From Dromiciops gliroides (lineage: Eukaryota; Chordata; Mammalia; Microbiotheria; Microbiotheriidae): a stretch of 64,000 nt of DNA. The position numbers and the translations under genes are program-made. Numbering within the stretch: position 1 is the first letter of the stretch; the number at the start of each line of letters is the position of its first letter. Shown here piece after piece: positions 41,072 to 45,250 of this stretch. The notes under the pieces were generated by a model. That model did not search any database. It saw only the letters and a program-made list of their open reading frames with translations, and was not told the DNA's origin. The stretch covers positions 171,524,403 to 171,588,402 of the forward strand of contig NC_057866.1 in assembly GCF_019393635.1 (NCBI RefSeq), read 5' to 3'.

Positions 41072-44000
41072 TTAAGCTGCTAGAGTTTGGGGTATGCCAC
41101 ATTGTTTTAACTGGTTCCCCAATTCTCTGCATGCCAAAGTGGCAGGGGTTTCTGAATTGTCATTGATCTTTCTAATGCTGTCATAATGTTCTTTATGGTA
41201 GAAAATGTGGAGTTCTCTAGCATCAGTTTTGTCTGTGCCACTGATTTTCAATAAAGGCTGATTTAATTGATGAACCACAACATTCAGCTGATGCTGCTTA
41301 GCAAATGCTACAATTGTATCATTTCCTCCCCACTTTCCAAATTTCTTTAATTCATCAACATATTCTTCAAAAGGGGAGTCATTTACTATAAAAGACTCAA
41401 ACTCTTGTCTATGGTTAATCATATAAGAAGCAGCTTCTTGTCTGTGTCTGAGATGATTTCTACAGTGACCTTCTAGCTGGTCTGCTAAAGCCCTAAAAAG
41501 GCAATTTCCGTCTCCTGATACTTCACGAAGACTGAGTCCCAAAGCATTTAACTGATCAGTGGGATTATTAAATGGGAACTGCCTTTTTCCTCTGAACTCT
41601 CTTTGCTCTTTAACAGTTGCTATCTTTAGGGTTTTTACCTCTTTAGCGTCTACCTCAGGTCTATCTGAAATCTCTTCACCTATGAATGGTGCAGGCTTTA
41701 TATGAGAGCAATGAATCCATGAGTCTTTTTCACCAATTTTAATGGCAGTAGGAGTTGTCAATAATACCTGAAAAGGTCCTTCCCAGGCAGGTTGAGTTCC
41801 ACTGGTTTTCTGAAAATTCTTTACATATATTTTATCTCCTGGGTTGAACTTATGCAATGAAAAGTCTAATGGTCCTGCCTGGACCACAGCTCCTGCCTCA
41901 TGGAGTTCACGTAGCCTGGTCTGTAATTCCTGTATATAGGAAGCAACAGAAGTATCACCTCCCACCAGTGATGTATAAACTGGGGAAAAAGTTTTAGCTT
42001 GGATAGGAGGGTGACCAAAAAGCATTTCATAAGGAGATATATGAAGTTCTCCTCTTGGTCTACTTCGTAGATAGAATAATGCCAATGGTAGAACATCAGG
42101 CCATTTCAAATGGGTTTCAGTACATAATTTGCCAATCATACTCTTAAGCTCTTTATTCATACGTTCGACTTGGCCTGAACTTTGTGGATGGTAGGGCGTG
42201 TGGAATTTTGGAGTCACTCCCAAGAAAGAGTAGATTTGGGATAAAATCGAATCAGTGAAATGTGTGCCTTTGTCAGAATCGATGCGGGCTGGTGGGCCAA
42301 AACGAGGTACTATCTCTTTAAGAAGAATTTTGGCAACAAAGGCAGCTGTGGCTCGGGGGCTGGGAAAGGCCTCCACCCACCGAGTGAGCTGATCAACTAT
42401 AACAAGGCAAAATTTATAATGTCCTGCTTTTGGCATAGTAATATAATCAATTTGTAAGTGCTCAAAAGGTGTATATGCTAGAGGACGCCCTCCATAAGCT
42501 TTGGCCTTAAAAGCATACTGATTATAAGACTGACATGTGGAGCAGCCCGAGCAGATTCGAGATGCTGTATTAGTCACACCTGGCGCTATCCAGGTTCTCT
42601 TAATAGAGTCTACAATGCCTTGTGTACCAAAATGGCCTTTTCTGTGAACAGAGAGGCATACCTGGTGGTAGAATTTCCGGGGAAGAAATGGCTTACCTTC
42701 CGGAGACACCCAGATGCCATTGATCTGTTTCGCCTTAAATTTCTTTTTCCACTTTTCTACTTCAGAATCGTCATAGGTTAGGTTGGAAGGAATATCCTCA
42801 GAAGGTGAAAGGTTAAATACATGTTCAGGAGCTTCTAATGCAGCAAGCTTGGCTGCAGAATCGGCTCGTGCATTTCCCTTTGAAACAGGATCACTATTCC
42901 CTGTGTGGGCAGGGCAATGTACAACGGCTAGGGAACAAGGCAGTTTTAGGGCATCTAAGAGGTCCTTGATAAGGTCCCCATTGGCAATAGCCTTGCCCGA
43001 GGATGTTAGAAAGCCTCGTTGACGCCAAATCATACCAATAAAGTGGCATATGCCAAAGCCATATTTCGAGTCAGTAAAAATGGTGGCACTCTTATCTTTA
43101 GCTATATTACAGGCCTGTGTAAGAGCCACAAGTTCAGCAGCCTGTGCACTAAAATGGGAAGGCAGAGAAGCTGCCCAGAGGGTGTCATAATCAGAAACTA
43201 CAGCAGCTCCAGTAAAACGGGTTCCCTCTCTCATAAATGAGGAACCATCTGTATAGAGGACAAGATCAGGATTTTCTAAAGGTGTATCAAAAAGATCGTC
43301 ACGGGGTTTTTCAGCCATATCAACTAAAGAAGCACAGTCATGCAACGGTTCCCCCGAGAATGGTAAGTTAGGGAGTAGTGTTGCTGGATTAAGAACTGTG
43401 CAGCGTTTTAAAGTGATATTCTCATTACCTAACAGGGTTATTTCATACTTAGCCAGCCTTTGATCTGAAAAGGCTTGTGTCCTGTGACGTAGTAAGAGAG
43501 CCTCCACTTCGTGAGGGCATTGCACAGTTAGAGGGTTACCTAGGACCAAATCAGAGGCTTTTTCTACCAAAAGCGCTGTGGCCGCCACTGCTCTAAGGCA
43601 AGGTGGCGCTCCAGCCGCTACAGGGTCCAGCTGAATTGAATAGTAGGCTATAGGACGTTGGTTAGGCCCCAGTGACTGAGTCAGGACTCCAGAAGCCACC
43701 CCCCTTTGTTCATGCACAAAGAGAGTGAAAGGCTTACTATAATCTGGCAGTCCTAGGGCAGGTGCTGATAACAAGGCCCGTTTTAATTCTTTTATGGCTG
43801 AGAGATGCTGGGGATCCAACTGTAAACTGTCTGGAACAGAACTTTTTGTAAGAGCTATGAGGGGTTTAGTAATTTCACCAAAAGAGGGTATCCATTGTCT
43901 ACAGTACCCAGCTGCTCCCAGAATGGCTCTCAACTGCCTCTTAGTAGTGGGGGCAGAGAGTTGTTGAATGGCCTGGACTCTCTTAGAAGAGACAGAGCGA

Positions 44001-45250
44001 GTTCCAGCAGCCAAAATAAATCCTAAATATTCTACCTGGGGCAAACACCATTGTACCTTTGTCTTGGAAACCTTGTGTCCTCTCTTGTGCAGCTCCAGCA
44101 GTAAGTGACGGCTATCTTCCTGACAAATTTCAGCATTAGGAGAGGCCAAAAGTAAGTCATCTACATATTGTACTAGTATGGAGCCCTTAAAGGTAATAGA
44201 GGCCAGATCCTGCTGTAAAATTTGGGAAAATAATGTGGGACTGTCTACAAATCCCTGTGGGAGTCTAGTCCAGGTCCACTGTCTATTTTTCCAGGTAAAA
44301 GCAAATAAATATTGGAAGTCCTCATGTACTGGTATGGAGAAAAAGGCAGAGCAAAGGTCTACCACTGTGAAACATGTAGATTCATAGGGAATCGAGGAAA
44401 TTATCGTAGCCGGGTTTGGAACTATGGAATGTCTAGGAATAACATAATTATTAATCGCTCTAAGATCTTGCACAAAACGATAAACAGGTTTACCATCTGG
44501 CCCAGGCTTGGGTTTTTTAACTGGCAAAATGGGAGTATTGCATGGAGAGTGATGACATGGAATAATAATACCCTGGCTTTTCAAAGCCTCAATTATAGGG
44601 GTGATCCCTTCTATTGCTTCCCTAGACAATGGATACTGTGGAATGGAGGGGGGTGGTCCCCCCTTAACTTTAAAGGTAACAGGCATGGCAGACTTAAGGA
44701 GCCCCACCTCATTAGGGGATGAGGCCCATAAAGACTCAGGAATGTCAGAGGGGATTTTGGATACCTCCCCTGCTGTTCCTTGAGCTTCTGTAAGTAAAAT
44801 TGGTAATAAATGAACAGTATCCTCTGGCAATTGTAAGGAGACAGCCCCATCTGGAGCACAAGATATGGTTGCTCTAAGCTTGCAAAGGAGATCACGACCT
44901 AATAAATTTACAGGGGCATCAGGCATGAGTAAAAATGAATGTTCCACTGTTAAGGGCCCCATAGATACCATGCGAGGATTCAATTTTGCCACTCTCTGGC
45001 TCTTTCCTGAGACTCCCACTACATTCAAAAATCCTACAGGTCTACACCCAGCATCTGGTTTGCTTACTAATACTGATTTAGAGGCTCCTGTGTCTAGCAG
45101 ACAATCATAATAAGTCTCCCCCACTTTTAAGGTGACATGTGGTTCATTACTCTGGGGAGGTGAATGGACTGGCACAAGTGCATTCAAAAAATCCGGATCT
45201 GGGAATATATGGCTTTCATTATCTATGTTCCATTCCTCCCCAAGACACCA
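41072..45250 (-). CDS. pol: Pro-Pol-OTU readthrough polyprotein: protease, RT, RNase H, integrase, OTU deubiquitinase
   Basis: Opens in the Gag phase right after the Gag TGA and runs 1,392 codons to TAA. Numbered from the TTG at 45,187 (1,371 residues): protease LLDTGAS with D32; RT with LPQGF at 309 and YVDD at 341-344; RNase H acidic residues D647, E685, D706 and D776. The integrase has H848-x3-H852 and C879-x2-C882, then D914, D972 and E1008 with 35 residues between the last two. A GPF-type C-terminal module lies at 1137-1139. After a linker (about 1165-1208) comes an OTU domain with C1229 and H1334. Every catalytic residue I can check is present and there is no frameshift or stop. No ATG stands near the start, so translation should come by readthrough of the TGA, as gamma-type viruses do. 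The fused OTU replaces env in the gene order. Confidence 0.93.
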   Translation of the reverse strand, partial: WCLGEEWNIDNESHIFPDPDFLNALVPVHSPPQSNEPHVTLKVGETYYDCLLDTGASKSVLVSKPDAGCRPVGFLNVVGVSGKSQRVAKLNPRMVSMGPLTVEHSFLLMPDAPVNLLGRDLLCKLRATISCAPDGAVSLQLPEDTVHLLPILLTEAQGTAGEVSKIPSDIPESLWASSPNEVGLLKSAMPVTFKVKGGPPPSIPQYPLSREAIEGITPIIEALKSQGIIIPCHHSPCNTPILPVKKPKPGPDGKPVYRFVQDLRAINNYVIPRHSIVPNPATIISSIPYESTCFTVVDLCSAFFSIPVHEDFQYLFAFTWKNRQWTWTRLPQGFVDSPTLFSQILQQDLASITFKGSILVQYVDDLLLASPNAEICQEDSRHLLLELHKRGHKVSKTKVQWCLPQVEYLGFILAAGTRSVSSKRVQAIQQLSAPTTKRQLRAILGAAGYCRQWIPSFGEITKPLIALTKSSVPDSLQLDPQHLSAIKELKRALLSAPALGLPDYSKPFTLFVHEQRGVASGVLTQSLGPNQRPIAYYSIQLDPVAAGAPPCLRAVAATALLVEKASDLVLGNPLTVQCPHEVEALLLRHRTQAFSDQRLAKYEITLLGNENITLKRCTVLNPATLLPNLPFSGEPLHDCASLVDMAEKPRDDLFDTPLENPDLVLYTDGSSFMREGTRFTGAAVVSDYDTLWAASLPSHFSAQAAELVALTQACNIAKDKSATIFTDSKYGFGICHFIGMIWRQRGFLTSSGKAIANGDLIKDLLDALKLPCSLAVVHCPAHTGNSDPVSKGNARADSAAKLAALEAPEHVFNLSPSEDIPSNLTYDDSEVEKWKKKFKAKQINGIWVSPEGKPFLPRKFYHQVCLSVHRKGHFGTQGIVDSIKRTWIAPGVTNTASRICSGCSTCQSYNQYAFKAKAYGGRPLAYTPFEHLQIDYITMPKAGHYKFCLVIVDQLTRWVEAFPSPRATAAFVAKILLKEIVPRFGPPARIDSDKGTHFTDSILSQIYSFLGVTPKFHTPYHPQSSGQVERMNKELKSMIGKLCTETHLKWPDVLPLALFYLRSRPRGELHISPYEMLFGHPPIQAKTFSPVYTSLVGGDTSVASYIQELQTRLRELHEAGAVVQAGPLDFSLHKFNPGDKIYVKNFQKTSGTQPAWEGPFQVLLTTPTAIKIGEKDSWIHCSHIKPAPFIGEEISDRPEVDAKEVKTLKIATVKEQREFRGKRQFPFNNPTDQLNALGLSLREVSGDGNCLFRALADQLEGHCRNHLRHRQEAASYMINHRQEFESFIVNDSPFEEYVDELKKFGKWGGNDTIVAFAKQHQLNVVVHQLNQPLLKISGTDKTDARELHIFYHKEHYDSIRKINDNSETPATLACRELGNQLKQCGIPQTLAA
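41075..41563 (-). other. Captured OTU deubiquitinase domain (OTUD3-like)
   Basis: Residues 1209-1371 of the pol frame. Catalytic cysteine block SGDGNCLFRAL (C1229, codon 41,503-41,501, TGC), aspartate D1226 beside it, and histidine in KEHYDSI (H1334, codon 41,188-41,186, CAT). Other blocks are ADQLEGH, NDTIVAFAKQHQLNVVVHQL, RELHIFY and RKINDNSE. From memory these match vertebrate OTUD3 more closely than other OTU families. OTU enzymes cut ubiquitin chains; OTUD3 prefers certain lysine linkages. The host OTUD3 gene has introns, whereas this copy has none, which fits capture from a spliced mRNA. About 35 residues after the OTU core are of unknown origin. Confidence 0.92.

Follow-up and report, generated by a model that had tools for sequence, protein, structure and literature searches.

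An endogenous retrovirus family of Dromiciops gliroides carries an OTUD3-like deubiquitinase domain at the end of Pol

A 64,000-nucleotide stretch of the Dromiciops gliroides genome (the window; NCBI RefSeq assembly GCF_019393635.1, contig NC_057866.1, positions 171,524,403 to 171,588,402 of the forward strand) contains an endogenous retrovirus (ERV) whose Pol reading frame continues past the integrase into an OTU deubiquitinase domain. Sequence comparison makes it nearly certain that the retroviral lineage captured this domain from OTUD3. The domain is very probably a selected, active deubiquitinase made with Gag-Pol. The best overall explanation, held here with moderate confidence, is a conserved Pol enzyme that is made only with Gag-Pol and would remove ubiquitin from the element's own integrase or particle; the activity and the target are what we infer.

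Results

The Pol frame and its OTU domain

The minus strand from 45250 to 41072 is one open frame of 1392 codons, stop to stop. Pfam identified RVP (6e-11), RVT_1 (1.4e-24), RNase_H (3.1e-22), rve (5.4e-15), MLVIN_C (1.7e-16) and OTU (7.3e-13) within this frame, and the OTU domain (PF02338) scored 49.6 bits against a curated cut-off of 23.3. The catalytic Cys and His were both found in the window copy by motif search and by alignment. A first-pass annotation, made from the sequence alone, had described a single frame running from protease through integrase into an OTU domain with its Cys and His blocks and no stop, and the reread frame, Pfam and the motifs agree with it. The frame reading and the Pfam domains likewise uphold its description of a gamma-type Pol with an in-frame OTU fusion. 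One refinement is added here: gag precedes pol immediately, with a single TGA between them and no change of frame. The parts of the Pol frame are as follows.

44864..45151, minus strand: aspartic protease, with DTGAS at 45080-45094
44012..44503, minus strand: reverse transcriptase, with YVDD
42839..43267, minus strand: RNase H
41690..42682, minus strand: integrase, with H2C2 zinc finger, DDE core and MLVIN_C C-terminal domain
41561..41689, minus strand: 43-codon linker between integrase and OTU core
41135..41560, minus strand: OTU domain, aligned with OTUD3 residues 54-196
41501-41503 and 41186-41188, minus strand: catalytic Cys codon and His codon of the OTU domain
41495-41518 and 41177-41197, minus strand: OTU catalytic motifs SGDGNCLF and HKEHYDS
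41072..41134, minus strand: C-terminal tail past the OTU domain, and stop codon

The OTU family search gave OTUD3 at E 3.9e-60 and the next family at 3.5e-10, and the predicted OTU structure matches 4bou with a root mean square deviation of 0.9. OTUD3 was ahead by a wide margin in both the sequence and the structure comparisons; absence of a Foldseek or VIA match was never used to exclude a family. Identity to OTUD3 across the domain is mostly 63-69% (66% for koala OTUD3). The homology in the window copy stops at residue 196, and the UBA and C-terminal region are absent. The proposal of a captured OTUD3-like domain is thereby supported, with vertebrate OTUD3 as the best match by sequence and by structure.

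The host OTUD3 gene was located on contig 3 of the same genome. Residues 92-196 are encoded by pieces at 614304999-614305112, 614306724-614306837 and 614308498-614308584, spaced 1.6-1.7 kb. Both upstream pieces are followed by a GT donor, and the last has an AG acceptor in front of it; the acceptor before the middle piece is placed only approximately. The proviral OTU copies are uninterrupted across the host intron points. The introns of the host gene are missing from the provirus, so the domain was captured from a spliced mRNA, as had been suggested.

Young copies across the genome

The genome searched was the window's own (3.30 Gb, 17 contigs). The search scores the best candidates only; copy counts are lower bounds, biased to close copies. 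The OTU DNA query gave 1380 first-look candidates, and the best 40, window's included, were all 100% identical (rounded) over the full 519 bases. The integrase-OTU junction was read in 27 of the 39 other scored copies. All 27 agree with the window's copy along 1329 bases (99.5-99.9% identity), gap-free and without a stop. The first-pass annotation had tied its proposal to a second genomic copy with the same junction and to the absence of an assembly error. The junction was found at many other loci, and therefore it is no assembly error.

With an integrase piece as query, the best 125 of 5178 candidates were scored, the window's included. A frame of exactly 1392 codons recurs in 100 of these 125 copies, again counting the window's, and the remaining 25 have open frames of 477 to 1476 codons. 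The open Pol-OTU frame is far beyond chance and recurs at the same length across copies. Thirty loci were cut from this search, the window's among them, which overlap the 27 junction copies; 26 of them have a complete linker and OTU with the two motifs, free of gaps and inner stops. An opossum integrase piece was also used as query, and the best 111 of its 5363 candidates were all at 80% identity, seemingly from the window's family. A further OTU match, G000:C1:188475945-188476409, lies in an open frame of 1387 codons and is perhaps from a sister subfamily.

Long terminal repeats (LTRs) were examined in 20 copies, two of which have no complete pair. The 18 complete pairs each differ by 0 or 1 base (14 with no mismatch, 4 with one), and each has a 4-bp target duplication, with 17 distinct sequences among the 18. 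LTR lengths vary among the other copies despite identical or near-identical aligned bases. These copies are independent insertions, and recent ones, because their LTR pairs are identical or nearly so.

Old relatives and the number of captures

The genome was also queried with koala OTUD3, and the best 103 of 19,938 candidates were scored, at 54-71% identity. These matches start mostly at OTUD3 residue 31-32 (extremes 7 and 65) and end at 193-198; therefore the N-terminal part of OTUD3 was probably captured too. The linker stretch aligns with this N-terminal part in divergent copies, and the 43-codon linker of the window copy is probably in good part its decayed remnant.

The 20 best loci of this search served as the divergent set. 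The integrase end adjoins the OTU in the same frame in 16 of them; the other four have an integrase that is interrupted or distant, or none within 1.5 kb. The window's 1.55-kb stretch after the OTU is matched in pieces by 19 of the 20. No env-sized frame follows the OTU in any of the 20, with no frame above 135 residues within about 1.5 kb.

The OTU tree was built from the 20 divergent OTUs and the window's, together with 12 rows of amniote OTUD3 and 6 of invertebrate OTUD3-like sequences. Mussel OTUD3 was excluded from the trees and from the metazoan constraint test below, because its model contains part of the domain twice. The 21 ERV OTUs form one clade with support of 100/100 and have a one-residue deletion in common. 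This one clade suggests a single capture of OTUD3 by an ancestor of the ERV family. The ERV clade is placed with amniote OTUD3 at a branch support of only 81/72 or, in another tree, 79/79; in that other tree its grouping with mammals alone was not rejected (p-AU 0.18). The first-pass annotation had named an OTU phylogeny outside vertebrate genes as a refutation; the closest match is vertebrate OTUD3, and the placement in the tree is without strong support. By alignment, His is kept in 21 of the 21 ERV OTUs and Cys in 20. Strict patterns are found less often (EHY.S in 3 of 21, G[DE]GNC in 16 of 21): it is the flanking residues that vary.

Selection on the OTU domain

The ratio of nonsynonymous to synonymous substitution (dN/dS), a rough measure at these distances, was 0.18-0.27 for the OTU of the window's copy against all ten divergent loci compared. 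For the integrase it was 0.10-0.31 against seven of those ten. Host OTUD3 compared with proviral OTUs over 104 codons gave a dS of 1.2-2.3 and a ratio of 0.10-0.18 in 7 of 8 rows; the dS of the window's row was not computable. In the metazoan constraint test with 26 OTUD3-like rows, the window OTU is changed at 3 of 36 invariant columns vs 44 of 106 other columns (one-sided p 1.1e-4). The vertebrate-only test was less sharp, with changes at 20 of 83 invariant vs 25 of 57 variable columns (p 0.017); its rows were limited to those with at most 3 gaps and merged where identical, giving 60 distinct of 107. A neutral simulation from host OTUD3 with random codons (2000 runs) left no stops in 9.8% of the runs and kept both motifs in 1.5%. 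We read the OTU as a maintained enzyme domain under purifying selection, because the dN/dS is low, the invariant columns are spared, and Cys and His are kept.

Expression

Within the last 205 residues there is one Met, and it is C-terminal to the catalytic Cys. The tail has no start codon before this Cys, and therefore an active OTU needs upstream Pol sequence. Viral contig scans with the OTU tail and with the reverse transcriptase gave no match, and neither did a phage DNA search.

Several observations weigh against a maintained enzyme made with Gag-Pol. The strict OTU check was failed by 4 of the 30 young loci, Cys is lost in 1 of the 21 OTUs of the tree, and 7 of the 21 have one or two inner stops. 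Pairs of old copies have higher dN/dS, 0.26-0.57 for the OTU (7 pairs) and 0.24-1.13 for the integrase (the 5 pairs with integrase); such higher ratios fit decay after insertion, as expected. The dS is high (up to 1.1 between lineages and at least 1.2 against the host); the dN/dS ratios are therefore rough, and a capture date is not obtainable from the host-provirus values. RNA structure after the gag TGA showed no excess over shuffles (z -0.04), which leaves the layout as the support for stop suppression. The protein database searches (three length bands), which found host OTUD3 and opossum Gag-Pol, returned no Pol-OTU protein. Finally, only physical linkage and the Ginger1 parallel indicate integrase or Gag-Pol as the substrate.

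The protein searches also returned P0015-P0044 (most from 'ena'), which are about 450-1200 residues long and contain an OTUD3-like OTU domain. P0016, P0019 and P0025 represent variants of a single protein other than Pol, which may be an amplified derivative of OTUD3. P0004 is a snake gene model joining OTUD3 to mitochondrial ubiquitin ligase activator of NFKB 1, probably because two neighbouring genes were predicted as one.

Layout of the provirus in the window

The window provirus has the features of a class I (gamma-type) ERV: LTRs, primer-binding site, polypurine tract, 4-bp duplication, Gag_p30, an MLV-type integrase C-terminus, and a stop that separates gag from pol without a change of frame. 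Its features outside the Pol frame are as follows.

47372..47375, minus strand: target-site duplication CCCC, 5' copy, preceded by a fifth C
46794..47371, minus strand: 5' LTR (TG...CA), 578 bases, with four tandem copies of a 39-nucleotide unit (47128-47282)
46994-47002 and 46904-46911, minus strand: TATA-like sequence and polyA signal of the 5' LTR
46773..46790, minus strand: primer-binding-site-like sequence, similar to a tRNA 3' end
46218..46601, minus strand: 128-codon hydrophobic open reading frame, 5' of gag and in another frame, overlapping a T-rich tract
45251..46273, minus strand: gag, from first ATG to TGA
45578-46099, minus strand: Gag_p30 (Pfam)
45386-45424, minus strand: single CCHC knuckle in gag
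45251-45253, minus strand: TGA separating gag and pol, with one frame on either side (gamma-type stop-suppression layout)
39520..41071, minus strand: 1.55 kb between OTU stop and 3' LTR, without an env-sized frame
39520-39531, minus strand: polypurine tract, at the 3' end of the 1.55-kb stretch
39059..39519, minus strand: 3' LTR, 461 bases
39055..39058, minus strand: target-site duplication CCCC, 3' copy

The two LTRs differ by one base and by the number of 39-nucleotide units, four in the 5' LTR and one in the 3' LTR. A related repeat at window 2856-3257 spans the insertion point of the joined flanks, an empty-site-like match whose shorter side is 48 bases. The tRNA whose 3' end the primer-binding site resembles is presumably tRNA-Arg. 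Pfam gave no match for the 128-codon frame and matched no matrix domain in gag, which starts close to its capsid part. The longest frame between the OTU and the 3' LTR has 160 codons, and a Pfam search of four pieces of that region gave no match. Loss of env is common among ERVs. The first-pass annotation had proposed that the OTU took the place of env when it was captured; the window provirus has no env.

Pieces of TRIM-type genes lie around the provirus, at 19691-20188 (minus strand), 16121-16651 (minus strand) and 48948-49493 (plus strand), comprising a RING/B-box exon and two SPRY exons. The SPRY exon at 48948-49493 is closest in PDB to TRIM11 and pyrin. It lies 1.6 kb from the deubiquitinase-bearing ERV, probably by coincidence. 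Window 51847-52126 and 36188-36599 may be pieces of other ERVs: one has a 75% match to the stretch before the 3' LTR, and the other is weakly integrase-like (plus strand). A reverse transcriptase frame at 8686-9756 (minus strand; Pfam RVT_1 5.5e-47) resembles the remnant of a long interspersed element, and 63730-63836 (plus strand) matches U6 RNA.

Discussion

Proposed course of events and function

A spliced OTUD3 mRNA supplied its N-terminal and OTU part to the end of pol in an ancestral gamma-type retrovirus, apparently in a single event. The OTU then became a standing part of Pol, in the same frame after the integrase in old and young lineages. The layout suggests that it is made as the tail of Gag-Pol by suppression of the gag-pol TGA, and that it may enter particles together with the integrase. 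The env-less lineages presumably multiplied by retrotransposition within cells, and the newest did so in a burst that left near-identical copies. The tethered deubiquitinase could strip ubiquitin from its own integrase, Gag-Pol or integration complex, and could so save them from proteasomal turnover or host E3 ligases. This choice of target is a reasonable possibility, short of probable.

Alternative explanations

An assembly chimera, or a later insertion of an OTUD3 pseudogene into one provirus, is refuted by the 27 of 27 gap-free junctions and by the target duplications of their own in 18 of 20 copies (17 different sequences). A late insertion is also contradicted by the OTU itself, which has only 66% identity to koala OTUD3 and is present in old lineages too. 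OTU domains occur in Ginger1 and Helitron elements and in many viruses, from which the OTU could have come instead of from host OTUD3. Such an origin is highly improbable: OTUD3 is far ahead in sequence and structure, in comparisons that did not directly include the Ginger1 and Helitron OTUs, and the best viral structure match to the model is about 20% identical. The OTU might instead be a passenger, carried along by chance in a successful element that does not need it, and the copies without Cys or with stops would fit this. The dN/dS of 0.18-0.27 in all ten comparisons with the window's copy, the spared conserved positions (one-sided p 1.1e-4), the 27 gap-free young junctions, and the rarity of neutral runs without stops (9.8%) or with both motifs (1.5%) make a passenger improbable.

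For a selected domain, targets other than the element's own proteins have to be weighed. The OTU tail might act on innate sensing, by removing K63 chains from RIG-I, MDA5 or MAVS and thereby lowering the interferon response to retroviral nucleic acid. The alignment retains the Lys and Arg equated with human K129 and R90, an equivalence that rests on numbering from what we take to be the catalytic Cys76 of human OTUD3. Suppression of RIG-I/MAVS signalling by host OTUD3 is reported in the available text of PMC12562500. The same text has OTUD3 stabilising cGAS, which would be harmful to a DNA-making element. Furthermore, the dose expected of a Gag-Pol tail without a start codon before Cys is low, and few incoming particles are expected because there is no env. 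A role in innate sensing is thus unlikely. Action on chromatin, with ubiquitin removed from histones or repair factors at the integration site, seems slightly less likely again; to our knowledge OTUD3 is not a histone deubiquitinase. In its favor, the OTU is fused to an integrase in two unrelated element classes, and the Ginger1 authors propose a role in repair after transposition (available text of PMC2836005). Deubiquitination of the element's own integrase, Gag-Pol or integration complex remains the preferred reading.

A host enzyme is now a conserved part of Pol in this ERV family. It can now be tested whether ubiquitin on integrase or the integration complex limits retrotransposition. The family is young and abundant, with open frames in most scored copies; how it is expressed, what its enzyme does and how it affects the host are accessible to direct study, and one can look for domesticated copies.

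Comparison with known systems

The proviral OTU is like host OTUD3 in fold, catalytic Cys and His, and sequence. It differs by the loss of everything past residue 196, by one deleted residue, and by its joining to an integrase. The nearest Pol proteins found are those of Monodelphis domestica Gag-Pol (P0053 and P0054, compared as cluster representatives); the Pol of P0054 is 74% identical over 1110 residues. Both end within about 10 residues past the integrase, without an OTU. The OTU proteases of nairoviruses and other viruses are also virus-borne OTU folds, but distant ones, at about 10-24% identity in the listed structural matches. The view that no vertebrate ERV with an OTU has been described is consistent with searches of open-access papers: among the titles and abstract openings listed, none reports a retroviral OTU domain. 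The searches extended neither to subscription papers nor to separate collections of preprints.

The host genes that retroviruses are known to have captured are mostly oncogenes, ligands or replacements of env. According to the available text of PMC4299795, crocodilian ERVs captured the host mRNAs of KIT-ligand and nectin3, the latter in the place of env, and kept them under purifying selection. They resemble the present family as vertebrate ERVs with a captured host mRNA under such selection; theirs code for a ligand or a cell-surface protein, whereas here an enzyme domain is fused to the end of Pol. The dasyurid marsupial element MEBrv 3 (available text of PMC11334065) is likewise an env-less ERV amplified inside marsupial genomes, but it is betaretroviral, unlike the gamma-type family of the window. 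The main text of that survey of marsupial ERVs contains no word beginning with OTU or ubiquitin.

Ginger1 elements, as described in the available text of PMC2836005, are cut-and-paste DNA transposons with terminal inverted repeats, found in hydra, sea hare, aphid and lancelet. Like the window element, they have a Gypsy/ERV-type integrase with a GPY/F motif and, C-terminal to it, a protease domain of the OTU (or Ulp1) type. They have terminal inverted repeats and no reverse transcriptase, whereas the window element has LTRs and a reverse transcriptase. The two fusions look independent and convergent, because the OTU here is OTUD3-derived and stands in an LTR provirus with a reverse transcriptase. 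The integrase-OTU of Ginger1 supports a link with integration. A broader and tentative proposal is that an integrase-tethered deubiquitinase is needed for movement of the element, has been kept since an ancient single capture, and is linked to the recent explosive amplification; the same design, arising separately in Ginger1, would then point to a general need for ubiquitin control at integration.

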